A stretch of DNA of 64,000 bases from Nitrososphaerota archaeon. Its GTDB lineage: Archaea; Thermoproteota; Nitrososphaeria; Nitrososphaerales; Gagatemarchaeaceae. The DNA lies in the NCBI GenBank assembly GCA_027339745.1, contig DAHWNW010000001.1, positions 1-64,000 of the forward strand, read 5' to 3'. The notes below the pieces were generated by a model. It ran no database searches, had not been told where the DNA came from, and was given only the letters and a program-made list of their open reading frames with translations. The translations under genes were made by a program, and so were the position numbers. The first letter of the stretch is position 1. Each line of letters begins with the position of its first letter. This document shows positions 5,220 to 42,846 of this stretch, one piece after another.

Positions 5220-6246
5220 CCAGGTCCTTGGTGAACTTGGTGAACAGCTCGGGCTTCCTGTCGACCCTGAGGGTGTCCTCTATCCTGATCCCGTACTTGC
5301 CGACGAGGTAGACGCCCGGCTCGTCCGTGATGACGTCGTTCTTCCCGAGCTTCACTTCGTTCCCGTGGAATATCCCTGGCGACTCGTGGATGTCGATGCC
5401 GACGCCGTGCCCCACGCTGTGGTTCAGATACCTGTCCATCCTGTGCTTGCGGAGGACGCCTACGGCCGCGTCGTGCACCGAGCCGCAGGAAACCCCTTCT
5501 TTCGCCGTGTCGATGGCTGCCTGCTGGGCATCCTTCACCACGGCGTAGGCCCTCTTCATCTCTGAGGTGACGCTCCCCACGGCGAACGTCCTGGTCTCGT
5601 CGGAGTTGTACCCCTCATACCTGAAGAACAGGTCGGCGACCACGAAGTCGCCGCTCTTGACCTTCCTCCCGGAGAGCTCCGAATGGCCGTACGCCCCGTG
5701 GGGCCCGGACGCGATGATGATCGGCCCCAACGACGAGCCAGAGTTGGAAGGGGTGAGCCCTTCCTCGAGGGCTGTCTTCATCACCTCAGCGGCCAGCTCC
5801 CACTCCGTCCGTCCGGGCTTCAGGACTTGCTCGAGCGTCCCGTATGTCTTGTCCGTCTTGGCGCAGGCCTTCCTGATCCGCTCGAGCTCCGGCTCGTCCT
5901 TGAACCTCCGCGCTTCGAGGAAGAGCTCCGGCTTCGCTTCCATCTTCCTGGGGTCCGTCCCAGGCTGGTCTGTCACAGCCTTCTTCCCGTCGAGCTGCTT
6001 CTCTATCTCGACCTGGACGTCCTTCCACCGCTTCACCACAACGATCTCCGCTTCCTTGCATACCTCCCCAGCCCTGTCTGCTTCCAGCGGGGTAGTGATC
6101 ACCACCGTCTTGTCGGGGCGGACCACCGCAGCCCCTCCGCCGAAGAAGTCCGTGAGGTAGAACAGGTTGGGGGCGGTCTGCGCTGCTACCTGGCTCCCTT
6201 TGGCCAGCGCGAGGAGCTTCTTGCGCCTCTGAGAGAAGACAGTCAA
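5206..6246 (-). CDS. pepQ: Xaa-Pro dipeptidase / M24 metallopeptidase
   Basis: This 346-residue protein has the two-domain layout of prolidase-type M24 peptidases: an N-terminal creatinase-like domain (about 1-120) and a C-terminal pita-bread domain. The dimetal ligands are visible as Asp in VADLFF, Asp in SDETRTF, His in HSVGHGVG, Glu in TDEPGVY and Glu in RIEDTL. It would cleave dipeptides with C-terminal proline in the cytoplasm. The start is TTG, with a TATA-like element (6268-6275) at leaderless distance. It converges with pantoate kinase and overlaps its 3' end by 14 bases. Confidence 0.88.
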   Translation of the reverse strand: MTVFSQRRKKLLALAKGSQVAAQTAPNLFYLTDFFGGGAAVVRPDKTVVITTPLEADRAGEVCKEAEIVVVKRWKDVQVEIEKQLDGKKAVTDQPGTDPRKMEAKPELFLEARRFKDEPELERIRKACAKTDKTYGTLEQVLKPGRTEWELAAEVMKTALEEGLTPSNSGSSLGPIIIASGPHGAYGHSELSGRKVKSGDFVVADLFFRYEGYNSDETRTFAVGSVTSEMKRAYAVVKDAQQAAIDTAKEGVSCGSVHDAAVGVLRKHRMDRYLNHSVGHGVGIDIHESPGIFHGNEVKLGKNDVITDEPGVYLVGKYGIRIEDTLRVDRKPELFTKFTKDLVTCG

Positions 6247-6532
6247 CGGCCTCGGGTGCGGGCGGGGTTATTACTACCTTGTCGTCGGTCTCTGGCAGGC
6301 ACCTCCGACCGGCTCGAATAGGGCGTCGGCCGGCTACCGGAGCTTGGATCTTGACACTATGATGAAAAAGGGCCTGAAACAGCCCATCACGGCCGACTCC
6401 TCTTTTGGTGGGCGCTCGCTCAGAAAAATCGCCCTCCGACGGCGGTGGAGGTCGGACTTATCACGGCGAATCAGGCTCCGATTCCCTTATATCCTCTGTC
6501 AAACCTGTCCTACAGTCGGGGCTAAACTTCCT

Positions 6533-9500
6533 GTGACGTATATCCGAAGGCTGGAGATGCGCGGCTTCAAGTCTTCCGGCCCTCGAACGGTCGTCGTAAA
6601 CTTCGAGCGCGGCTTCACCGTCATCACCGGGCCCAACGGCAGCGGCAAGTCCAACCTCGCGGACGCCATCGCGTTCACCATCGGCGAGAACTCTCCGAAG
6701 GCGCTGAGGGCCGCGAACGGGAGGCTGTCCGGGCTCATCTATGACCCGAGGAAGGAGGACTCGCCCGGGGGCGGCAAGCCCAACGCCTGCAGGGTGACCC
6801 TCCAGTTCGACAACTCTGACAGGGCGATCCCGATCGACTCGGACCTTGTGACCCTGACGAGGGAGCTCAGGGAGGACGGCGACAACAGCTACTATCTCAA
6901 CGGGAGGAAGAGCACCAGGAGCGCGCTCACCGAGATCATAGACCTGGCCGGGCTTGCGCCTGGCGGGTTCAACATCGTCGCCCAGGGCGCCGCCACGAGG
7001 ATGGCAGACCTGACGCCCGAGGAGAAGAGGAAGGTCATCGAGAGCGTCGTCGGGATATCAAAGTTCGACGAGCGCAAGGCCGAGGCCCAGAGGCAGCTCA
7101 GCCAGGCCGACCAGAGGCTCGAGGTGGCCATGGCGCGCATCGGCGAGATGAAGAGCACACTCGAGTCGCTCGACTCGCAGAGGACCGAGATGGTGAGGTA
7201 CAACCTGCTCGAGTCCCAGATAAACTGGCTCAACGCGGTGATCACCTCGAAGAGGGTGACGGACCTGAAGGGGAGGCTCGCGGACCTGAGGTCGCAGGAG
7301 CAGGGGCTTAACGCGAAGCTGGGCGACCTGGGGGCGAGGCTGGTCGAGCTCGAGAACCGCATATCGCAGGTCGAAAGCGACAAGACGAAGTTCATCGTAG
7401 AGGTCATCCAGGGAGGGGGGGCGAGCCATGTCGAGCTGCAGTTCCAGCTCGCCGAGCTCAGGAACGAGCTCGAGACGCTGGAGTCGGACTTCAAGACGGC
7501 CGAGGGGAACGTGGCCGAGCTCGAGGGAGAGACCGTCCCGCAGCTGAAGCAGGTCGTCTCGGAGAAGCAGAAGGAGACGAACGCCGCCTCATCGACAGTG
7601 AGGCAGCTGACCGCCGACATAGAGAAGCTCGACGCCAAGCACGCCGAGCTCGCCCAGAGGCTGAAGGAGTTCTTCCGCGCGGGAGAGGAGCTGAGGGGGA
7701 CCATCGAGAAGAAGGGGAAGCTCACTGCGAAGGTGCAGGTCAAGCTGGCGGACCTCGTCCAGAGGCAGACCCAGGTTGAACTTGCCATCAACGCCGCCAG
7801 CGCCAGCTTGGGCGTGGAGCGGAAGCGCCTGGACGAACTGAAGCTCAGGGTCGACGGATACTCCGAGGTGCTGGGGAAGCTGGAGGCGAGCACGAAGCAG
7901 CTCTTCGGGCTCTACGACACGTCCACGAAGGAGCTCAGCACCCTCGACGAGAGCCTCTCGGGGGCAGAGAGGACCAGGGAGGCGCTGATGGCGTCGATCC
8001 AGGGTGCCTCGAAGATACTGGAGAAGGCGTCGGCGGAGATGTCGAAGGAGGAAGCGTTCAGACACCTCTCCGAGAGCCTCGCGGGGGAGAGGAGCGGACA
8101 GCGGAAGCTCCAGGACTTCTGCGACCAGGGAGGCGTCCCAGGATACGTCGGGAGGCTGGGCCAGGTCGTGAAGTATCCGCAGCAGTACTCCAAGGCCGTC
8201 AACGCGGTGATAGGCAAATGGCTCGGCGCCTTCATCGTCCAGGACCTGAAGTCCATGACGCACCTGATCAAAGCCGCGAAGTCACTGAAGGCGAAGAGCT
8301 TCTCGGTCATACCGCTCAGCGAGGTGGAGTCGTGCAAGGCGTCCGAAGTGGAGAGGTCGGCCGGCGTGATCGGTCTGCTCTCCGGCGTGATAAAGTGCGA
8401 GGAAGAGTTCGAGGGCCTGGTCAACTTCCTCGCCGGGGACTCGGTCCTGGTCGAGACCGAGGCCATAGGGTACATCATGGCCTCCGAGGGGATCAGGGCC
8501 GTGACGGAAGCGGGGGAGACATTCGAGCCCGGCGGTAGGGCGTTCAGCTATGGGTACCAGGAGCTGGTGGTCAACCTGATGGAGGGGCTGGAGAACATCG
8601 AGGGCATGAGCGAGGTGGAGGACGCCGTCGGCGCCCTCAAGGGGGCCATCGACAGGAGGAGGTCACAGCTCAGCTCGCTGGAGTCTGGTTCGCGCTCGAT
8701 GATGAAGGAGCGTATCAAGAAAATCGTGACCACCACCAGCCTGAAGGCCGAGGCGACCACCATCACCAGGATGGCCAAGAGATACAGCAGCATATTCAAG
8801 ACGATGAACGCCGAGTACCAGAAGCAGGCCAGCGTCGTCGCGCGCCTGGAGGAGAAGCTCAGGGTGAACGTCGAGAGGAAAGAGTCCGTAGCCAAGGGCA
8901 TCGCCTCCCTGCAGCAGGTGGTCGCCGACTCGCAGGCGCTGGGGCTTGAGGGGCACCTCGCCGAGCTCGACGCGACGAAGAAGTCCGTCTCAGACGAGAT
9001 AGACGCCATCAGGAACCGCATCCAGGACATCAGCCTCACCCTGACCAGGGAGAAGGCGAACCTGGAGAACGTGCTCCTGCGGGCCCTGGAGGAGAACCAG
9101 CTGGACCTGGCCAACGCGACGGAGGACCTCCAGTCGAACAAGCAGTTCGTTCGGGAAGCGCCTCGCAGGATCAGGGAGCTCGCCGAGCAGAAGAAGTCCT
9201 ACGAGGACCAGATTTCGAAGCTCATGGAGTCGTCGAAGAGGAGCCAGCCCGTCCTGGACGAGTTCGACGCGAAGGGGAAGCGCCTGAAGGAGGAGAGGGA
9301 CAGCGTGTCCAGGTCTGTGTCGGCGCACCAGAAGGACCTGTTCGCCATCGCAGGGCAGGCGTCGACGACCCAGGAGAGGATAGAGGAGGCGCTCGGGAGC
9401 CTGAGGATGCTCGGCTACTCGGAAGAGCTCGAATACTTCGAGTCCTGCGAGTCCCTCCTGGCAGACCTCCAGCAGGAGTACCAGGCGGCTTCCGGCTCGG

Positions 9501-10093
9501 TGAACAGGGGGGCGGACAGGCAGTACACCGAGATGTACCTGAGCTACAAGAACCTCTCCGTCAGGCACAACGAGCTGGAGGGGGAGCGGAACTCGATCAT
9601 TACATTCATCGAGAGCGTGGAGGCCGAGAAGAGGAAGGTGTTCGTGTCCGCCTTCGACAGGGTCGGGAACGAGTTCAGCTCCATCTTCGCCAAGCTGACA
9701 GGGGGGACGGCCCAGCTCGACCTCGAAAAGCCTGACGAGATATTCGCCGGGGGGATATTCATGCGCGCCGACTTCGGGAACGGGCTCCGCGAGTCGTCCC
9801 AGCACAGCGGAGGGCAGAGGGCTGTGACGGGAGTGTCCCTGATACTCGCGATGCAGGCCGTCCAGACGCACCCGTTCTACCTCTTCGACGAGATTGACGC
9901 GCCGCTGGACGCGGTCAACTCGAGCAGCCTGGCGAAGTTCCTGAAGGAGAAGTCCGCCGAGGCCCAGATAATCGCCATCACGCTCAGAGACGTCTTCGTG
10001 GCGGAGAGCGACATGACCTACGGGGTCTACTCAGCGGGTGGGGTCTCGAGGGTGGTCCACTACAAGCCCGCCGAGGTGCCGAGGAGTGCCTAG
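6533..10093 (+). CDS. smc: Chromosome segregation ATPase SMC
   Basis: SMC forms the long arms of the condensin ring that organises the chromosome. The frame is open from 6344, but the conserved N-terminus begins at GTG 6533 (VTYIRRLEMRGFK), giving 1186 residues, the usual SMC length. The Walker A motif GPNGSGKS is at residues 33-40. Long coiled coils flank a hinge at about 530-690. The ABC signature HSGGQR (about 1090) and Walker B YLFDEIDAPLD (about 1115) close the C-terminal head. A TATA-like element (cttatatcc, 6485-6492) lies 42 bases upstream. The next two genes, scpA and scpB, overlap head to tail, so the entire condensin is one operon. Confidence 0.97.
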   Translation: MTYIRRLEMRGFKSSGPRTVVVNFERGFTVITGPNGSGKSNLADAIAFTIGENSPKALRAANGRLSGLIYDPRKEDSPGGGKPNACRVTLQFDNSDRAIPIDSDLVTLTRELREDGDNSYYLNGRKSTRSALTEIIDLAGLAPGGFNIVAQGAATRMADLTPEEKRKVIESVVGISKFDERKAEAQRQLSQADQRLEVAMARIGEMKSTLESLDSQRTEMVRYNLLESQINWLNAVITSKRVTDLKGRLADLRSQEQGLNAKLGDLGARLVELENRISQVESDKTKFIVEVIQGGGASHVELQFQLAELRNELETLESDFKTAEGNVAELEGETVPQLKQVVSEKQKETNAASSTVRQLTADIEKLDAKHAELAQRLKEFFRAGEELRGTIEKKGKLTAKVQVKLADLVQRQTQVELAINAASASLGVERKRLDELKLRVDGYSEVLGKLEASTKQLFGLYDTSTKELSTLDESLSGAERTREALMASIQGASKILEKASAEMSKEEAFRHLSESLAGERSGQRKLQDFCDQGGVPGYVGRLGQVVKYPQQYSKAVNAVIGKWLGAFIVQDLKSMTHLIKAAKSLKAKSFSVIPLSEVESCKASEVERSAGVIGLLSGVIKCEEEFEGLVNFLAGDSVLVETEAIGYIMASEGIRAVTEAGETFEPGGRAFSYGYQELVVNLMEGLENIEGMSEVEDAVGALKGAIDRRRSQLSSLESGSRSMMKERIKKIVTTTSLKAEATTITRMAKRYSSIFKTMNAEYQKQASVVARLEEKLRVNVERKESVAKGIASLQQVVADSQALGLEGHLAELDATKKSVSDEIDAIRNRIQDISLTLTREKANLENVLLRALEENQLDLANATEDLQSNKQFVREAPRRIRELAEQKKSYEDQISKLMESSKRSQPVLDEFDAKGKRLKEERDSVSRSVSAHQKDLFAIAGQASTTQERIEEALGSLRMLGYSEELEYFESCESLLADLQQEYQAASGSVNRGADRQYTEMYLSYKNLSVRHNELEGERNSIITFIESVEAEKRKVFVSAFDRVGNEFSSIFAKLTGGTAQLDLEKPDEIFAGGIFMRADFGNGLRESSQHSGGQRAVTGVSLILAMQAVQTHPFYLFDEIDAPLDAVNSSSLAKFLKEKSAEAQIIAITLRDVFVAESDMTYGVYSAGGVSRVVHYKPAEVPRSA

Positions 10094-19172: not shown

Positions 19173-19760
19173 CTATTGCTCCATGAACACTTGCCAGTAG
19201 CAGTTAGTCGCTGAAATCAGCACCTCGTAGCTGCGCCCTACGGCCAGTCCAGAGCAGCTGTCGCTGAAGGATGCGGGCGCGTACGCCGTCTTTTGGCACA
19301 ACGCAGCGCTCTCTGGCGTCTGGGGGTTCAGATACACAGCGTACGAGAATGCGACAGCCTTCGGCGGGTCTGTCGGCATAATGTATGCCGAGAGCTGGAC
19401 GGTGAAAGAAGGAGCGGTGAACGAGTAGCTCCCGGTCGACTGCCCTAGTCCCCCGCCTCCGGAGCTGGCGAGGTCGGGCGGAGGCAAGACGGTGGGCGTC
19501 GGACCAATCGCCAGGCTGTATCCTGTGCTGTTCACGTTGTCATAGGTCCCGCCTATTCCGAACACCCGGTAGGTGACTGATGAATATCCTGGCTTGTAGT
19601 AGCCAAAGCACCCGACCATGCGTGTGGCACCTCCTGACGACGATGGACATTTGCTCGGGGGCGGGGTTATGACGAAGTCCACCTGCAAGATGGGGGCGAG
19701 GAACAGGAATGCGGGGACCGCGACTAGCGCGACGATCACTGCCTTGCTCCTTCGTCGCAT
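19173..19760 (-). CDS. Secreted or membrane-anchored hypothetical protein
   Basis: I do not recognise this 195-residue protein. An arginine-rich N-terminus (MRRRSK) precedes one hydrophobic segment (about 7-25). The rest is a Ser/Gly/Pro/Tyr-rich extracytoplasmic part with a beta-sandwich look and several cysteines that could form disulfides (around SKCPSS, MVGCFGYY, ALCQK, DSCSG, TNCYW). The frame extends to 19790, but ATG 19760 gives the better signal sequence. It is followed on the same strand side by two small membrane proteins, perhaps a recently acquired surface set. Confidence 0.5.
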   Translation of the reverse strand: MRRRSKAVIVALVAVPAFLFLAPILQVDFVITPPPSKCPSSSGGATRMVGCFGYYKPGYSSVTYRVFGIGGTYDNVNSTGYSLAIGPTPTVLPPPDLASSGGGGLGQSTGSYSFTAPSFTVQLSAYIMPTDPPKAVAFSYAVYLNPQTPESAALCQKTAYAPASFSDSCSGLAVGRSYEVLISATNCYWQVFMEQ

Positions 19761-19839
19761 GCCCTCAACATGAGGGCCTCCCATACACACCTATGGTTGA
19801 ACTGTCCTGGTATCCAGCCGCTGGCGCTTCAGGCGCGGG

Positions 19840-20139
19840 CTACGTCACGGTCAGCAGCTTGCGCATGACCCAGGCAAAGAGCGACGCGAGGATGCCGCCC
19901 ACCCCAAGGACTAGGAACGTCCCCTCTACCCGCTGGGTGATGGCGCACGCGAGCACCAGCGTCCCGTTGATCACGGGCTGCTGGGCTCCGCACCAGTATG
20001 TCTCCACGCCCGACTCGTATATCGCGGCGGCGATCCCAGCGACCGCCAGGACCATCAGCTCGACCGCGACCACGGTGGCTACGCCGACGCCTCTCCGGAC
20101 GCGCATGAACCCAGGCGCCGCCCTCACTCGGGGGGTCAT
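19840..20139 (-). CDS. Small membrane protein, two helices
   Basis: This 99-residue protein has a basic N-terminus (RVRAAPGFMRVRRG) and two membrane helices (about 18-40 and 72-93). The loop between them carries two cysteines (YWCGAQ, VLACAIT) that could form an extracytoplasmic disulfide. It overlaps the upstream small membrane protein by an ATGA, so the two probably form a complex. No family was recognised. Confidence 0.5.
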   Translation of the reverse strand: MTPRVRAAPGFMRVRRGVGVATVVAVELMVLAVAGIAAAIYESGVETYWCGAQQPVINGTLVLACAITQRVEGTFLVLGVGGILASLFAWVMRKLLTVT

Positions 20140-20384
20140 CGCTCCTCCTCGCGCCTGGCTTCACGTTCTCCGCGGACCAGGAAGACCAAGTTTAGCGCCA
20201 TCCCTGCCGCTCCTACTGCGAGCAGCAGATCGGCGGAGGAGAGCAGCGCCCCTCGGACAGAAGTAGCGGCGGTCATCGACGCGGCTGCACTCTGGATGAA
20301 CCAACCGAACAGGCCCACGACACCGAACGTCCACGAGACCAGGGCCGCCGCCCAGTTGAGTCCTCTCATCTGGGCTGTCGCCAA
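20136..20384 (-). CDS. Small membrane protein, two helices
   Basis: This 82-residue protein has two hydrophobic segments (about 11-35 and 46-68) and a highly charged C-terminal tail (RGEREARREEER) that would face the cytoplasm. A TATA-like element (taaaatag on the minus strand, 20393-20400) lies close upstream of the start. Its stop overlaps the start of the next membrane protein. Function is unknown. Confidence 0.5.
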   Translation of the reverse strand: MATAQMRGLNWAAALVSWTFGVVGLFGWFIQSAAASMTAATSVRGALLSSADLLLAVGAAGMALNLVFLVRGEREARREEER

Positions 20385-20527
20385 CCGGCTCGCTATTTTA
20401 GGACTCAGCCAGCGAACGTAGGCCCCTTAACTTCACTCCATCAGAGACTGCGCGCGGGCGGAGCAGCCGCCGGCTGAGCTCTGAGGCGTGTCCGGAAGCA
20501 GCACCCCCTCGGGAAATCAACCTGGAG

Positions 20528-20884
20528 TCAGGCGTACTTTTCTATCTCTTCCTTGAGGACGGACCTATGGCACGTCGAAGGGTCCTTCTCCGTGCAGAGG
20601 AGGGTTATCGTCCCTGCCTTCGATTCCTTCGCGAGCTGGCGCAGGGTCCCCTCCTTCCCCCTCAGGGACTTCCTGTACTCCGACCTGAATTCGTCCAACG
20701 ACACCTCTCCGGATTTGTACCGCTTGATTAGGTCTCTGGGGGAGCCCAGGTCCTTCATCCAGGCGTCCACCTTGTCCTTGGAGACGCCTCGGGGCCAGAG
20801 GGTCATGACAAGGACCCGCTTTCCATCGCCCCGCTCGGGAGGGGAATAGACCGACTTCTCGACCTTGATCAACCCGCAAGGCAA
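20528..20884 (-). CDS. DUF488 family protein
   Basis: This 118-residue protein matches the DUF488 pattern: RVLVMTLWPRGVSKDKVDAWMKDLGSP, then FRSEYRKSL, and near the end TITLLCTEKDPSTCHRSVL, in which the family's Cys-His element is present (the classic DUF488 pattern has CHR at this point). The biochemical function of DUF488 is not established. It begins with TTG and is transcribed alone, diverging from the S30e-elp3-gatDE side. Confidence 0.85.
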   Translation of the reverse strand: MPCGLIKVEKSVYSPPERGDGKRVLVMTLWPRGVSKDKVDAWMKDLGSPRDLIKRYKSGEVSLDEFRSEYRKSLRGKEGTLRQLAKESKAGTITLLCTEKDPSTCHRSVLKEEIEKYA

Positions 20885-21072
20885 GAGGGATCCCAGCTAC
20901 TAATGCCTTCCCTAGCTCGCACGCGCCGCGGTGTCTCGCCGCTCGACCCCCCTCGTCAGGGCAACTTTTGGCGCTCCGCCTAGGACGACCAGGTGGCGCG
21001 ACCCACCTGTCGCTGGCCAATACTTTATAGAGCGTCCAATCAAGTCGGGGAGAAAAGAGGAGGTGCAAAAAC

Positions 21073-21260
21073 ACGCCTACACACGGATCGCTGACGAAGG
21101 CGGGTAAACATCCCGACGATGGCCCTGAGTCCGTAGTCAGACTCCGAAACTGGAAGGGAAGCCGAAGGACAGCAAGATCCCCAAGGTGAGGAACAAGCGG
21201 ACCTACGAGAAGCGCTTCACTCTGAAGCGTAAGCCCGGACAGAACTGGATGCGCCAGTGA
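21073..21260 (+). CDS. rps30e: Ribosomal protein eS30, broken frame and no normal start
   Basis: The two halves of a small-subunit S30e protein are present but not in one frame. The first half, 21073-21108, reads TPTHGSLTKAGK after a Shine-Dalgarno-like aggaggtg seven bases upstream, but the codon at the start position is ACG. The second half, 21129-21257, reads VRSQTPKLEGK and continues for 43 residues to the signature KRKPGQNWMRQ. Between them lie 20 extra bases (21109-21128) ending in an in-frame TGA. Without them the two halves join exactly as in homologues. The stop overlaps the elp3 start (GTGA). A TATA-like element (ctttatag, 21022-21029) precedes it. It could be an intron, a translational bypass, a pseudogene or an assembly error. 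Confidence 0.7.
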
Positions 21261-22846
21261 CAGACCAGGGACTCAGCCTCAGCGACGCTATCTCTTACGT
21301 AGCGGAGCTGGTGTCGGAGGGGGAGGTGCGCTCCAGGAATGACCTTGAGAGGGCCAAGAAGCGGGCGGCGTCACTCTACGGCCTAGACAGATACCCATCG
21401 AACTCTGAGATACTCGCCAGGCTCCCACGGGGGTCGGCGGAGGGGTTCGAAGAGCTCCTCAGGGTCCATCCGAGGAGGAGCGCGTCAGGTATCGTGGTCG
21501 TCACCGCGTTTTCCGCTCCGTTTTCATGCCCGCATGGGACGTGCGTCTTCTGCCCCGGCGGCCCCCGCGTCGGCACCCCGCAGTCATACCTCCCTCGCAG
21601 CCCAGGGATGAAGACGGCCCTCTCCGTAGGATTCGACCCATATCTCCAGGTGAGGAAGTGCCTGGCGAAGTACAGGGGGAACGGGCACGAGACGAGCAAA
21701 GTGGAGACGATAATCGAAGGGGGGACTTTCATCGCGGTGGACGAAGGGTATCAGAGGAGCTTCGTCAAGGGCGTCTTCGACGGGCTCAACGGCTTCAAGT
21801 CAGCCACCTTAGAGGAGGCGCAGGTGGCCAACGAGTCGGCGGATAGCAGGTGCGTGGGTCTGACGCTCGAGTCCAAACCAGACTGGTGCAGGCCCAGGGA
21901 CGTAGACCTCATGCTCAGCTACGGCATCACCAGGCTCGAGGTAGGCGTCCAGAGTCTCAGGGACGAAGTCCTCGCGAAGAGCAACCGCGGGCACACCGTC
22001 GAGGACTCGGTCATGGCGTTCCAGGTGGCGAGGGACGCGGGGCTCAAGGTGACGGCCCATATGATGCCCGGGCTCCCAGGAGCGACCCCGGGAGAGGACC
22101 TGGAAGACCTCCGGCGGCTCTTCGAAGACGAGAGGTTCAGGCCGGACATGTCTAAGCTCTACCCCACGCTTGTGGTCCCGGGGACGGCGCTGGCACGCCA
22201 GTTCGATGCCGGGCTCTACACCCCCTATTCCCTCGAGACGGTGGTAGAGCTGCTGAGCGAGATGAAGAGGCATGTCCCGCCCTGGCACAGGATAATGAGG
22301 ATACAGAGGGAGATCCCCTCCGACGAGATAGAGGGGGGCGTGAGGGACGGGAACCTCAGGCAGCTGGTCCTGCAGCGAGCCGAGGAGAAGGGGGTCCGTT
22401 GCATGTGCATCAGGTGCAGGGAGGTGGCCCTGAGGGGCCCCGAGGGTCTGGAAGCAGGGGACCTCGAGTATCGACAGGAGAGGTACGCGGCCTCCGGAGG
22501 GGAGGAGGTCTTCGGGTCGTTCGAGGTCAAGAGGTCAAGGGCGATAGCAGGGTTCGTCCGCCTGCGCCTCCCCTCCGCCGCAGCCCACAGGAAGGAGATG
22601 CGGAGGGCGGCTGTGGTCAGGGAGCTCCGCGTCTACGGGAAGGCGGTGAGGCTGGGGGGGAGGGCGGAGGGGGCTTGGCAGCACAGAGGGCTGGGGGGCG
22701 CGCTCATGAGGAAGGCCGAGGATGTGGCCTCGTCCGACCTCGGGGCGAGGAAGCTCCTGGTCACGAGCGCTGTGGGGACCAGGGGATACTACAGGGGGCT
22801 CGGCTTCGATAGGGAGGGCCCCTACATGTCAAAGCTCCTTCGCTAA
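21257..22846 (+). CDS. elp3: Elp3, tRNA wobble-uridine carboxymethylation enzyme
   Basis: Elp3 uses acetyl-CoA and radical SAM chemistry to modify uridine 34 of tRNAs. The 529-residue protein has an N-terminal tRNA-binding segment. The radical SAM domain follows, with the unusual cluster ligands Cys91, Cys96 and Cys99 (SCPHGTCVFC). A C-terminal GNAT acetyltransferase domain (about 395-529) includes QHRGLGGALMRKAE and YYRGLGF. GTG start lies inside the S30e stop. This stand-alone archaeal form works without the other Elongator subunits. Confidence 0.96.
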   Translation: MTDQGLSLSDAISYVAELVSEGEVRSRNDLERAKKRAASLYGLDRYPSNSEILARLPRGSAEGFEELLRVHPRRSASGIVVVTAFSAPFSCPHGTCVFCPGGPRVGTPQSYLPRSPGMKTALSVGFDPYLQVRKCLAKYRGNGHETSKVETIIEGGTFIAVDEGYQRSFVKGVFDGLNGFKSATLEEAQVANESADSRCVGLTLESKPDWCRPRDVDLMLSYGITRLEVGVQSLRDEVLAKSNRGHTVEDSVMAFQVARDAGLKVTAHMMPGLPGATPGEDLEDLRRLFEDERFRPDMSKLYPTLVVPGTALARQFDAGLYTPYSLETVVELLSEMKRHVPPWHRIMRIQREIPSDEIEGGVRDGNLRQLVLQRAEEKGVRCMCIRCREVALRGPEGLEAGDLEYRQERYAASGGEEVFGSFEVKRSRAIAGFVRLRLPSAAAHRKEMRRAAVVRELRVYGKAVRLGGRAEGAWQHRGLGGALMRKAEDVASSDLGARKLLVTSAVGTRGYYRGLGFDREGPYMSKLLR

Positions 22847-34108: not shown

Positions 34109-34934
34109 GACCAAGAAGCTCGTAATGGTTACCAACGACGACAGCGTGCAGAGCAACGGCATAGTCGAGCTCGCACGGGCCACGGCGAAGCACGCCAAGG
34201 CTGTCATAGTCGCCCCGGAGCAGCCTCAGAGCGCCACCGCCCTCAGCCTGACGTTCCACAAACCCATCAGGGTGAACAGGGTGAGGCGCGACAATTTCGA
34301 GTGCTACGCCGTCTCGGGGTCGCCGGGGGACTGCGTGATGGTCGGGGTGAACAAGGTCCTCCCGAGGAAGCCTGATCTGGTGGTCTCGGGGATCAACATC
34401 GGGGACAACGACACCTTCCAAGACATACTGGCTTCCGGCACGGTGGCGGCGGCGTTGGAGTCGGCTATCACTGGGATACCTGCCATAGCGTTCTCGATGG
34501 AGGTGAGCGGGGAGTCGATGTTCGCGCTCGAGTACGACCAGCCCGACTTCACCAACGCAGGCATCATCGCGGGGGAGATAATCCGCGACGTCCTTGACAA
34601 CGGCATGCCCGATGGAGCCGAGATCCTGAACGTCAACTTCCCCCGGAACGTGCAGCCTACCACCCCGATCAAGATCACAGAGGTGGGGAGGAGGAAGTAC
34701 ACGGACAAGGTCCTCGTCAGACGGGACCCGAGAGGTAGGCCCTACTATTGGCTCTTTGGGGAGCGGCTCACCAGTTTCCCCGACAGGACAGACGCGGAGG
34801 CGGTGGTCGTGAAGAAGCACGTGTCGATCACTCCCATCGTTCTCAAGATGTCAGGCCCCCCCTCCAGGGACCTGTCGAGGCTCAGGGAAAGGGTCGAAGA
34901 GGGGCTCCAGAGGTCACGCCGCGGCGGCCGATAG
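34101..34934 (+). CDS. surE: 5'/3'-nucleotidase SurE
   Basis: SurE is a metal-dependent phosphatase acting on nucleoside monophosphates. The N-terminal motif TNDDS (11-15) provides the Asp pair, and VVSGINIGDND supplies the Asn ligand; SPGDCV follows the typical order. At 277 residues it is slightly longer than usual, with a basic tail (RLRERVEEGLQRSRRGGR). Start is TTG, inside the preceding HTH gene, so expression probably follows the stress regulator. Confidence 0.94.
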   Translation: MSETKKLVMVTNDDSVQSNGIVELARATAKHAKAVIVAPEQPQSATALSLTFHKPIRVNRVRRDNFECYAVSGSPGDCVMVGVNKVLPRKPDLVVSGINIGDNDTFQDILASGTVAAALESAITGIPAIAFSMEVSGESMFALEYDQPDFTNAGIIAGEIIRDVLDNGMPDGAEILNVNFPRNVQPTTPIKITEVGRRKYTDKVLVRRDPRGRPYYWLFGERLTSFPDRTDAEAVVVKKHVSITPIVLKMSGPPSRDLSRLRERVEEGLQRSRRGGR

Positions 34935-34943
34935 AAGGGAGCG

Positions 34944-35453
34944 GTGGCGGCGACGGCTGCAGGGGAAGTCTGGGAGGAGGTCGATGCGAAGATGAGGGTC
35001 GTCCGGCTCACGCCCCCCCTGCAGGCGCTGGTCCCCGTCCTGGCGCTCCCCGCCCTATCGAAGGGGACGAGGGGGATGACACTGATACCAGGGAGCGGGG
35101 GGGCCGCCCTGGGCGCTATCCTCGTGGCCGCGTCGTCGGGGATGGCCTACGCGCTCTACACCGCGGCCGGGCCCCTGGCGGGGCTCCTCCCAGTCTGGCT
35201 GGTCGGGACCGCGGGGGCGGTCCTGCTCGCGTCGGCTATGAAGCCGACCGCCTTCGTAAAACCGATATGCGTCCGCTGCAGGCTCCTCCCTGTGATCAGG
35301 GAGCACGAGGCGATACACCTTTCCGGCGTCGGCGGAGAGGAGGCAGTCTGGGAGTCGATGCGTTCGAGGCACAGCATCGAGAGCCTGTCCTTGGAGGGGG
35401 ACCCGGCGATATGCGCCTTCTGTCCGATCCCCAAGAGACTCGCGGAGCGCTAG
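34944..35453 (+). CDS. Membrane protein with paired cysteine motifs
   Basis: This 169-residue protein has two to three hydrophobic segments (about 50-75, 80-98) preceded by an amphipathic N-terminus. A cytoplasmic-looking tail holds CVRC (at about 109-112), HEAIHL, and CAFC (at about 158-161). Four cysteines in two pairs with nearby His residues suggest a zinc or iron-sulphur site. I do not recognise the family. It lies between surE and ABCE1 with gaps of about ten bases, so it is probably co-transcribed with them. Confidence 0.55.
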   Translation: MAATAAGEVWEEVDAKMRVVRLTPPLQALVPVLALPALSKGTRGMTLIPGSGGAALGAILVAASSGMAYALYTAAGPLAGLLPVWLVGTAGAVLLASAMKPTAFVKPICVRCRLLPVIREHEAIHLSGVGGEEAVWESMRSRHSIESLSLEGDPAICAFCPIPKRLAER

Positions 35454-40998: not shown

Positions 40999-41818
40999 TC
41001 TTCTTTGCGTATGCTTCGACCCTCTTGAACAGGAAGAACGCCAGGGCCAGGTAGGCGAGGGTCTCGACGGCCATGATGGCCATGTCCTGCCAGTACGTGG
41101 TCGGGAGGCCCACGTAGTTGGGGAGGGCGGCGATCCTGATGGCGTCTATCCCCCATGTCGGGGCGAGCATGAAGGCGAACGGGAGGTAGACTATCGGCAG
41201 GAGTATCACAGGGAACATCGTGCCGGTCGCGATGTACACCGGGATCTCCATCGAGTTGGTGATGAAGCCCCCCTTGCGCGAGAGGAGGAGGACGGTCGTC
41301 ATGAGGAGGCCGAAGGTCGAGAGCGAGAGGAAGGTAGACACAGAAGCGAGGAAGAAGGCAGGAGGATTGACGAGCGTGAACCCCGTCCTGAACCAGGCTA
41401 TCCCGATCACCAGTATGAAGACGGCGGTGAGGACCCCCTGGAGGGTGTTGAACAGCACTCTGCCGAGCGCGATCCAGGAGAGGGGCATCGGCGCGGCGAG
41501 GGTAGATTCCATCGTCCCGTTCCACCTGTCGAAGCCTATCGAGTTCGCCGAGGCGTAGATGGTCGTCCCCCACATCCCCATCAGCCCCGAGCCCAGGACT
41601 AGGTACAGGAGGAAGGAGCCGCTCGAGGTCTGGCCGTCGAACAGCTCGAAGGCGACGAGGGTGAATATGAACGGGGCGATGATGTTGGGGATGACCCACT
41701 GCGGGTCGGCGAAGAAGAGCCTGCTTGTGAGGAACATGGAAGCCTTCAGGACTTGCACCCTCTGCCCCAGGTACCCCTCCGTCCTCTTCCCGGGGGTCAG
41801 GTCGTCCATGGAGGGCAT
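40976..41818 (-). CDS. ABC-2 type exporter permease
   Basis: This is the second permease, 280 residues, related to its neighbour: elbow helix KASMFLTSRLFFADPQWV, membrane helices, and the signature PVILLPIVYLPFAFMLAPTWGIDAIR near the C-terminus. The C-terminal tails of both permeases are alike (VEAYAKKIGTLEEY and SLSRRTGRFEEY), suggesting duplication. The stop of the ATPase and this start overlap as TAATG (41816-41820). Confidence 0.85.
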   Translation of the reverse strand: MPSMDDLTPGKRTEGYLGQRVQVLKASMFLTSRLFFADPQWVIPNIIAPFIFTLVAFELFDGQTSSGSFLLYLVLGSGLMGMWGTTIYASANSIGFDRWNGTMESTLAAPMPLSWIALGRVLFNTLQGVLTAVFILVIGIAWFRTGFTLVNPPAFFLASVSTFLSLSTFGLLMTTVLLLSRKGGFITNSMEIPVYIATGTMFPVILLPIVYLPFAFMLAPTWGIDAIRIAALPNYVGLPTTYWQDMAIMAVETLAYLALAFFLFKRVEAYAKKIGTLEEY

Positions 41819-42846
41819 TACTCTTCCACCAACCTGAGGTAGGCGTCTTCCAGCGTCGGCTCCTTTATCGTCCTGTCGATTATCTTCGTCCCCTCCGGGA
41901 GCGCGGCGACCACCTGTGGGAGGAGGTCCGCGCCCATGGGGGTCTGGACCCTGATCGACTGCTCCTCGGAGTCGAGGTCGGCCACCACCCTGACCACGCT
42001 CGGGAGGGCCCGGAGAGCTTCGACGTACTCCATCGTCGCCCCGTATGTCCTGAGGTCTATGACGGAGATGTCTCTTACCATGTTCTTCAGATCGGACGGG
42101 GTGTCGAGCGCGACTATCTTCCCCTTCGAGATCACCCCCACGCGCTGGCAGAGCTCCTCCGCCTCGAACATGTAGTGCGTAGTGAGGAGGATCGTCTTCC
42201 CCTGTGCCTTCAGCTCCCGCACCATGTTGCGGATGTCCCTCGCCCCGGCAGGGTCGAGCCCTATGGTGGGCTCGTCGAGGAATATCAGCTCAGGGTCGTG
42301 TACCAGGGCCTTCGCTATGTGGAGCCTCTGCTTCATCCCCCTCGAATACTTCTCGACTCTCTCCTGGGCCCTGTCGGCCAGACCCACCACTTCGAGCAGC
42401 TGCGGGATCCTCTTCTTTGCGACCCCCGAGTCGACCCCGTAGAGGTCCGAGAAGTAGCGGAGGTTGTCCACCGCAGAGACCCTGTTGTAGAGGCCCCTCT
42501 CCCCGCCGAAGACGATCCCTATCCTGCGCCTGATCTCGTAGAGGTCTTTCCTGACGTCGAGGCCCAGGATCGTCGCGTCGCCCCCGGTCGGGGTGAGCAG
42601 CGTCGTGAGGATCTTGATGGTCGTGGTCTTGCCGGCGCCGTTGGGCCCTATCAGACCGAAGAGCTCGCCTACCGCGACCTGGAAGTCGACGCCGGAGAGC
42701 GCCCACGTGCTCCGCGCGACCCCGCCGAAGAAGTTCCTAGTGGTATACTCCCGAGTAAGCCCCTTGACCGAAACGGCCCATTCTGACGACTCTGCGGACG
42801 GCGACCCCAGCACCAATACCTGATATGGCTCCCGTGGGATTCCCAC
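41818..42846 (-). CDS. ABC exporter ATPase, DrrA/NatA type
   Basis: The ATPase drives the two ABC-2 permeases. Walker A is GPNGAGKT, signature YSRGMKQRLHIAKAL, Walker B ELIFLDEPTIGLDPAG and H-loop LLTTHYMFEAE. The C-terminal regulatory extension (about 240-340) resembles that of DrrA/daunorubicin-type exporters. The frame is open to 42939, and the ATP domain needs only a start before about 42770. I place it at GTG 42846, the best leaderless match to a weak TATA-like element near 42860. TTG 42816 and GTG 42813 are alternatives. Confidence 0.88.
   Translation of the reverse strand: MGIPREPYQVLVLGSPSAESSEWAVSVKGLTREYTTRNFFGGVARSTWALSGVDFQVAVGELFGLIGPNGAGKTTTIKILTTLLTPTGGDATILGLDVRKDLYEIRRRIGIVFGGERGLYNRVSAVDNLRYFSDLYGVDSGVAKKRIPQLLEVVGLADRAQERVEKYSRGMKQRLHIAKALVHDPELIFLDEPTIGLDPAGARDIRNMVRELKAQGKTILLTTHYMFEAEELCQRVGVISKGKIVALDTPSDLKNMVRDISVIDLRTYGATMEYVEALRALPSVVRVVADLDSEEQSIRVQTPMGADLLPQVVAALPEGTKIIDRTIKEPTLEDAYLRLVEE

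Follow-up and report, generated by a model that had tools for sequence, protein, structure and literature searches.

The gene for ribosomal protein S30e (rps30e) of a Nitrososphaerales archaeon very probably carries a 20-nt archaeal pre-mRNA intron of the bulge-helix-bulge (BHB) type, which would be spliced out of a message started at an ACG codon, and this ACG most likely stems from insertion of a LAGLIDADG homing endonuclease gene (HEG); our confidence in this joint reading is high. The case for a BHB intron in rps30e is made by the motif and the covariation of its pairs, by a reading frame that is restored exactly, by the occurrence of one copy per genome, and, in relatives, by another intron site in the gene and by the processing enzymes that they encode.

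In the window, by which we mean the whole 64,000-nt stretch of DNA analysed here, the two halves of S30e are read in different frames, TPTHGSLTKAGK at 21073-21108 and VRSQTPK...GQNWMRQ at 21129-21257, with 20 bases between them and a TGA directly 5' of the GTC at which the second half resumes. The start position is occupied by ACG, placed behind a good Shine-Dalgarno (SD) site, and the gene overlaps a downstream open reading frame (ORF) that we take to be elp3, as named in the earlier note. All these features had been pointed out in the earlier note, and all are confirmed; the ACG is common to relatives as well. Exon 2 alone aligns with positions 13-46 of the S30e model NF006817 (E 5.5e-10, 38.9 bits, under the cut-off of 75). 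Features of the locus are collected in Table 1.

Table 1. Coordinates of the rps30e locus and its proposed intron in the window.
Feature	Position	Strand	Remarks
TATA-like element TTTATA	21024-21029	+	TATATA in about the same place in 12/14 distinct ACG-type genes (by eye)
Probable LAGLIDADG HEG C-terminal tail and stop, now rps30e leader	21020-21094	+	Open frame ending in ILYRASNQVGEKRGGAKTRLHTDR and a stop
Shine-Dalgarno GGAGGTG	21059-21065	+	7 nt 5' of ACG
rps30e exon 1	21073-21107	+	ACG start codon 21073-21075
BHB motif	21099-21131	+	Minimum-energy fold; 165/165 cells paired over 15 distinct sequences
BHB outer helix GGC/GUC	21099-21101/21129-21131	+	
BHB central helix GGGU/GCCC	21102-21105/21122-21125	+	
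BHB bulges AAA and UGA	21106-21108 and 21126-21128	+	
Intron A, 20 nt, BHB intron	21108-21127	+	Canonical BHB, fold, covariation
BHB inner helix CAUC/GAUG	21109-21112/21118-21121	+	
rps30e exon 2 including stop	21128-21260	+	S30e model NF006817
elp3	21257-22846	+	GTG at 21257 opens the frame; GTGA overlap with rps30e TGA stop

A very short archaeal mRNA intron was the first cause that the earlier note listed for the split gene, and this proposal was right; its argument against a standard intron was wrong. It had put the insert at 21109-21128 and found that a BHB failed to pair there. The junction of the insert, here called intron A, is ambiguous by one base, and the alternative register pairs as a canonical BHB with an identical spliced product, so that the case against a standard intron came from a one-base register error. 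The canonical arrangement, two 3-nt bulges separated by a 4-bp helix and bordered by flanking helices, is found in 15 of 15 distinct intron-A sequences, and an in silico cut between the second and third bases of the bulges gives GKVR back exactly. Within the window, an exact-register BHB motif occurs at 5 of 127,918 positions on both strands, intron A included. Folding 21094-21134 gives the BHB as the minimum-energy structure, and the introns of two relatives, L010 and L046, likewise take this shape at minimum energy. The folding energy itself is not unusual: 161 of 200 shuffles of 21094-21134 fold at least as well (z +0.84), the longer stretch 21087-21140 gives z -0.60, and the L010 and L046 introns (z -1.27 and -0.56) lie little or not at all below their shuffles. 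Rfam models, searched against 20400-21900 up to E 1, gave no match to a group I intron or other catalogued structured RNA.

All 11 pairs of the motif form in all 15 distinct intron-A sequences, the window's among them, and sliding the register by one to three columns leaves 33-59% of cells paired. Two-sided changes are seen in 6 of the 11 pairs, with a covariation of 0.558 versus 0.196 in shuffles (0/500). These compensatory changes reach synonymous sites of the exons: the wobble base of an exon 1 Gly codon co-varies with intron A, and in L013 the wobble base of an exon 1 Lys codon and that of an exon 2 Val codon have changed together from G-C to A-U. Where intron A is present, the Ala codon ends in a purine (GCG or GCA) in 15/15 genes versus 2/13 without it (p 3.6e-6), and the Lys/Val wobble pair is kept in 15/15 versus 6/13 (p 0.0014), in both cases with relatedness not removed. 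Synonymous exon codons are thus constrained where intron A is present.

The split is shared widely. The window's own genome (60% complete) holds one match to the rps30e locus, and a DNA search of 61 genomes, its own included, found the locus in 27; in other genomes of the genus the insertion aligned without change of length, and the hit alignments show that the window's insertion is common to relatives, with a second insertion upstream in others. The stretch 21040-21280 is 100% identical in G004, of the same genus. The closest loci in a named collection are labelled Nitrososphaerota or Thaumarchaeota archaeon, Nitrososphaerales archaeon, or Candidatus Gagatemarchaeum stordalenia (L048), and judging by these neighbours the hosts are Gagatemarchaeaceae-like Nitrososphaerales, a family described as the former group I.1c (PMC10640624). 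The main text of that paper, searched by term, mentions neither introns nor splicing, and neither S30, ribosomal proteins nor start codons.

Exon 2 is held, once each, by 31 of 46 family genomes, and 27 of these 31 carry at least one intron (11 intron A only, 10 intron B only, 6 both and 4 neither, by tally; intron B is the second insertion). The remaining 15 genomes we read as assembly gaps: 14 of them also give no elp3 match, and in G001 the contig begins inside elp3. Counting identical rps30e bodies once leaves 28 distinct family genes, of which 10 combine ACG with intron A, 4 have ACG and no intron, 9 have ATG or TTG with intron B, and 5 have ATG or TTG with both. Eight loci that the motif did not parse are uninterrupted, M-starting genes outside the family set and were left out of the counts. 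Intron lengths are 19, 20, 31, 32 and 46 nt, never multiples of three, and in all 24 distinct family genes that have an intron, canonical removal in silico leaves a 36-nt exon and PTHGSLTKAGKVR. Separately, L088, from a Nitrososphaerales MAG, has one extra base that breaks rps30e, either an error or another oddity.

This distribution bears on two of the causes that had been offered earlier. If the gene had recently become a pseudogene, S30e being dispensable or made from another copy, a broken frame and a start that is not ATG would be accounted for, but each of the 31 genomes with any exon-2 match has exactly one, so that the second rps30e proposed in the earlier note is found neither there nor in the window's own genome. 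Moreover, exon 2 is 81-95% identical to the window's in five family relatives and 76% in a sixth (L023), and the broken state is common to many species and accompanied by compensatory changes. Decay is therefore very improbable. A sequencing or assembly error might be thought of, most named records being metagenome-assembled; it is the least probable of the readings considered, since 15 distinct sequences, that of the window among them, have an insert at site A and 14 have one at site B, from many differently named isolates, and the inserts of separate relatives co-vary. The split of rps30e is real and is not decay.

Intron B lies 16 nt upstream of the intron-A site, after the start codon and CCNACNCACGGRAGTC, in 14 distinct family genes. 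It is 31-32 nt long, and 46 nt in L041; in L041 and L119 a CGT-type repeat in the hairpin loop expands it to this size. The five distinct genes with both introns therefore have a 16-nt exon between them. The central helix is GAAG/CUUC or GGAG/CUCC, tied to a Gly wobble base, the inner helix is mostly GCAG/CUGC, and the bulges are UCA and A(G/A/U)U. Pairs of the central and inner helices form in 111 of 112 cases, and across 13 of the 14 sequences (L041 was left out of the alignment for its length) 96.8% of cells are paired, with a covariation of 0.264 versus 0.095 in shuffles (0/500). The outer exon-exon helix does not form: in 14 of 14 sequences A.C and C.A mismatches leave 1 of 3 outer pairs. 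Intron B is at best a relaxed BHB motif, and in L009 the minimum-energy structure of intron B folded alone is not the BHB.

Hairpins of 19-20 or 31-46 nt would also suit a programmed ribosomal bypass or frameshift over the insert, with no RNA splicing, and the bypass site of phage T4 likewise has a hairpin (PMC8211752). This explanation, too, had been raised in the earlier note, but the triplet before the resume codon (TGA, CGA, GAA, ACA, TAA, TTA, CTA or CAA) differs from the last codon before the insert, which is AAA (AAT in L004 and L006), and matching take-off and landing codons are found in 0 of 15 sequences. The conserved pairs reach both exons in BHB register, including the exon-exon change from G-C to A-U in L013, and there are two sites in one short gene. 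We consider bypass highly unlikely, and a BHB intron remains the reading that we favor.

Removal of such an intron calls for an endonuclease and a ligase. The splicing endonuclease family PF01974 is matched in 36 of 41 genomes, with two matches in 26 of the 41, and the RNA ligase RtcB in 28 of 31; in the window's own assembly (60% complete) neither PF01974 nor RtcB was matched. One G015 paralogue, with a DHAP motif, matches 3p1z_B (E 1.8e-41), which we take to be the heteromeric splicing endonuclease of A. pernix, and a second matches 5x89_A (E 1.1e-22). The second does not have the histidine of the DHAP motif that the first has, a residue that presumably has a catalytic role. Relatives are thus predicted to encode both a splicing endonuclease and a ligase. 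A review assigns alpha2beta2 splicing endonucleases to Thaumarchaeota (PMC4090602). In three relatives (G002:C36, G006:C40 and G011:C96) the RtcB match is split at about profile position 47-50. The split falls within long ORFs in G002 and G011 and next to a long ORF in G006, and it resembles what an intein or comparable insertion in the ligase would give.

We propose that transcription would begin from the TATA-like element, that a heteromeric tRNA-splicing endonuclease would cut after 21107 and 21127, between bulge bases 2 and 3, and that RtcB would ligate the exons. The spliced mRNA would then be translated from the ACG, behind its strong SD, into a normal S30e of 55 residues. An SD-like stretch precedes 28 of 28 distinct family rps30e genes (by eye), and ACG is the start in 14 of these 28 (15 of 31 genomes). 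Five ACG genes (L007, L017, L022, L046 and L139) have an in-frame stop between the SD core and the ACG, so initiation is not upstream there. We infer that ACG is a working start codon. Titles retrieved on non-AUG starts in archaea include none on ACG starts, and one paper names, in its available text, AUG, GUG and UUG only as starts (PMC7531240). Outside the family, 6 of 58 distinct rps30e genes parsed also have other codons at the start position: CTG, GTA (two), ATA and ACG (two), in L061, L067, L093, L105, L062 and L076.

The likely cause of the ACG, an HEG overlapping the start, was absent from the options of the earlier note. A LAGLIDADG ORF or remnant adjoins rps30e on its upstream side in six ACG genomes and extends into the gene; the open frames with LAGLIDADG features upstream of several ACG-type genes overlap it by 14-53 nt (19 nt in most). 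The ORF is long in L007 (229 codons), L183 (211) and L132 (197) and broken in L136; remnants are present in L004 and L006, whereas L003, L005 and, weakly, the window have just the tail. The upstream ORFs of relatives match LAGLIDADG_3 (E 1.5e-4 and 0.0046), at 22.3 and 17.6 bits versus a Pfam gathering score of 22.5, and 3e54, an rRNA intron-encoded endonuclease (E 2.9e-6); an NCBIfam scan of the HEG gave no match. On this similarity to known LAGLIDADG enzymes the ORF is a predicted homing endonuclease. The tails of L003 and L005 match those of L004, L006 and L007 with E 2e-7 to 8e-6; for the tail in the window only a weak match was obtained (E 0.012-0.016, against a tiny database), and part of the likeness is due to S30e coding, since the last residues of the frame lie inside rps30e. 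A tblastn search (E 1e-3) placed HEG likeness in front of six ACG-type genes, and in front of none of the intron-B genes among the loci searched. The DNA that L007 shares with its intron-B relative L019 runs out at -748 in the former and at -190 in the latter, which fits an insertion of about 550 bp. Because of the overlapping HEG and its remnants, we read the ACG as probably the scar of a LAGLIDADG HEG insertion at the rps30e start, after which the HEG tail would have come to serve as promoter, SD and start.

An HEG that overlaps the start of rps30e could instead belong to a third, larger intron separating an upstream ATG exon from the ACG, and many archaeal rRNA introns are described as holding HEGs (PMC2738675). 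This is unlikely, though less so than the other alternatives. When 14 ACG-type loci were searched for start codons that precede CCN and have an SD or TATA, no group-wide candidate emerged, only L003 and L005 sharing one, near -870, in a search not exhaustive for upstream BHBs. Moreover, TATA-like and SD elements stand before the ACG at the usual spacing in most genes, even where the HEG ORF has decayed; the ACG-type genome G005 has neither the TATATA element nor HEG likeness.

ACG and intron B exclude one another: 15 of 15 ACG genomes have no intron B, which is present in 16 of 16 ATG or TTG genomes. A tree of elp3 was made from 2 outgroup rows and 30 of 31 family rows, G036 being too short; elp3 was not matched in 7 of the 9 outgroup loci intended for it. 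This tree needs 10 changes for intron A and 5 each for ACG and for intron-B loss, 4 of the 5 switches being forced by well-supported branches. The two traits change in opposite directions in each of 4 independent pairs (sign test p 0.125), so that the exclusivity, complete by count, is weak as independent evidence. Recombination or homing that swapped the 5' block as a whole would account for it; concealment of the HEG target by the intron is a possible reason. Carried further, the latter becomes an arms race in which the HEG targets the 5' end of rps30e, intron-B alleles, with the intron inside that target, cannot be cut and keep AUG or UUG, and unprotected alleles are invaded, their start changed to ACG and the HEG tail made promoter and SD. 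We regard this as a speculative, rather doubtful account; if true, archaeal mRNA BHB mini-introns would be kept or born as shields against homing elements, or be relics of them.

A frame-break scan with a GC3 filter, run on the window and the syntenic DNA of G004, G005, G008 and G015, found no insert of 15-60 nt; it missed rps30e itself and so is blind to very small genes. Unfiltered, the scan found rps30e by its place (G005 versus G008, insert 20) amid many apparent shadow frames, and two further 20-nt inserts, a G005 ORF versus window 34714-35447 and window ORF 19673-20263 versus G008, which were dropped without individual checks. Two other places in the window drew attention. At 41607-42172 a coding stretch shifts frame by one base relative to G015, with the same break in G004, and is a real frameshift, a shadow frame, or an error common to close assemblies. 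At 5521-10078 a 1469-aa ORF of G005 aligns in two frames with about 217 extra bases between, as it also does in G004.

An rps30e with one or two mini-introns, family-wide and covarying, would broaden archaeal mRNA splicing and offer a clean system for how such introns arise and are lost. It may account for rps30e genes that annotations have missed, and the ACG-type genes form a natural collection of ribosomal-protein genes with an apparent ACG start. According to a 2020 paper, cbf5 is the only archaeal mRNA with a reported additional BHB intron, to which that paper adds one Haloferax mRNA (PMC7714728); the cbf5 paper mentions predicted cases in other genes, as unconfirmed, and putative introns of 12 bp in an archaeal virus (PMC2738675). 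As far as the accessible text of the literature examined goes, BHB splicing of archaeal coding sequences is demonstrated for cbf5 only and just predicted elsewhere, and among open-licence papers on archaeal mRNA or BHB introns, S30e and the splicing endonuclease no title or abstract start concerned rps30e introns.

The closest parallels lie on several sides. The predicted HEG has a sequence relative in the rRNA intron-encoded LAGLIDADG endonuclease 3e54; unlike 3e54, it adjoins a protein gene, runs into its start, and has a possible N-terminal C2H2 finger (Pfam, sub-threshold). With the BHB introns of archaeal tRNA and rRNA, the rps30e introns share the motif and, as would be expected, the processing enzymes, whereas their host is an mRNA and the exon side of the motif is drawn partly from synonymous codon positions. 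The Haloferax HVO_1309 mRNA is likewise cut by the splicing endonuclease at BHB sites, which lie there in the 5' UTR (PMC7714728). The cbf5 pre-mRNA introns of Desulfurococcales and Sulfolobales, 16-44 bp long, resemble those of rps30e in being short BHB introns of a protein gene, cut between bulge bases 2 and 3, patchily lost, and found in lineages with heteromeric endonucleases (PMC2738675). An HEG beside mini-introns in the same gene touches the idea of the cbf5 authors that short mRNA introns are deletion derivatives of endonuclease-bearing introns (PMC2738675). In the family studied here cbf5 itself looks uninterrupted: in 42 of 46 genomes its match clears the cut-off and contains no stops. 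Unlike cbf5, the host gene is that of ribosomal protein S30e, in Nitrososphaerales related to acid-soil lineages, and this single gene has two sites for introns as well as a 16-nt exon; the motif of intron A is canonical, whereas those of cbf5 are described as mostly unconventional (PMC2738675).
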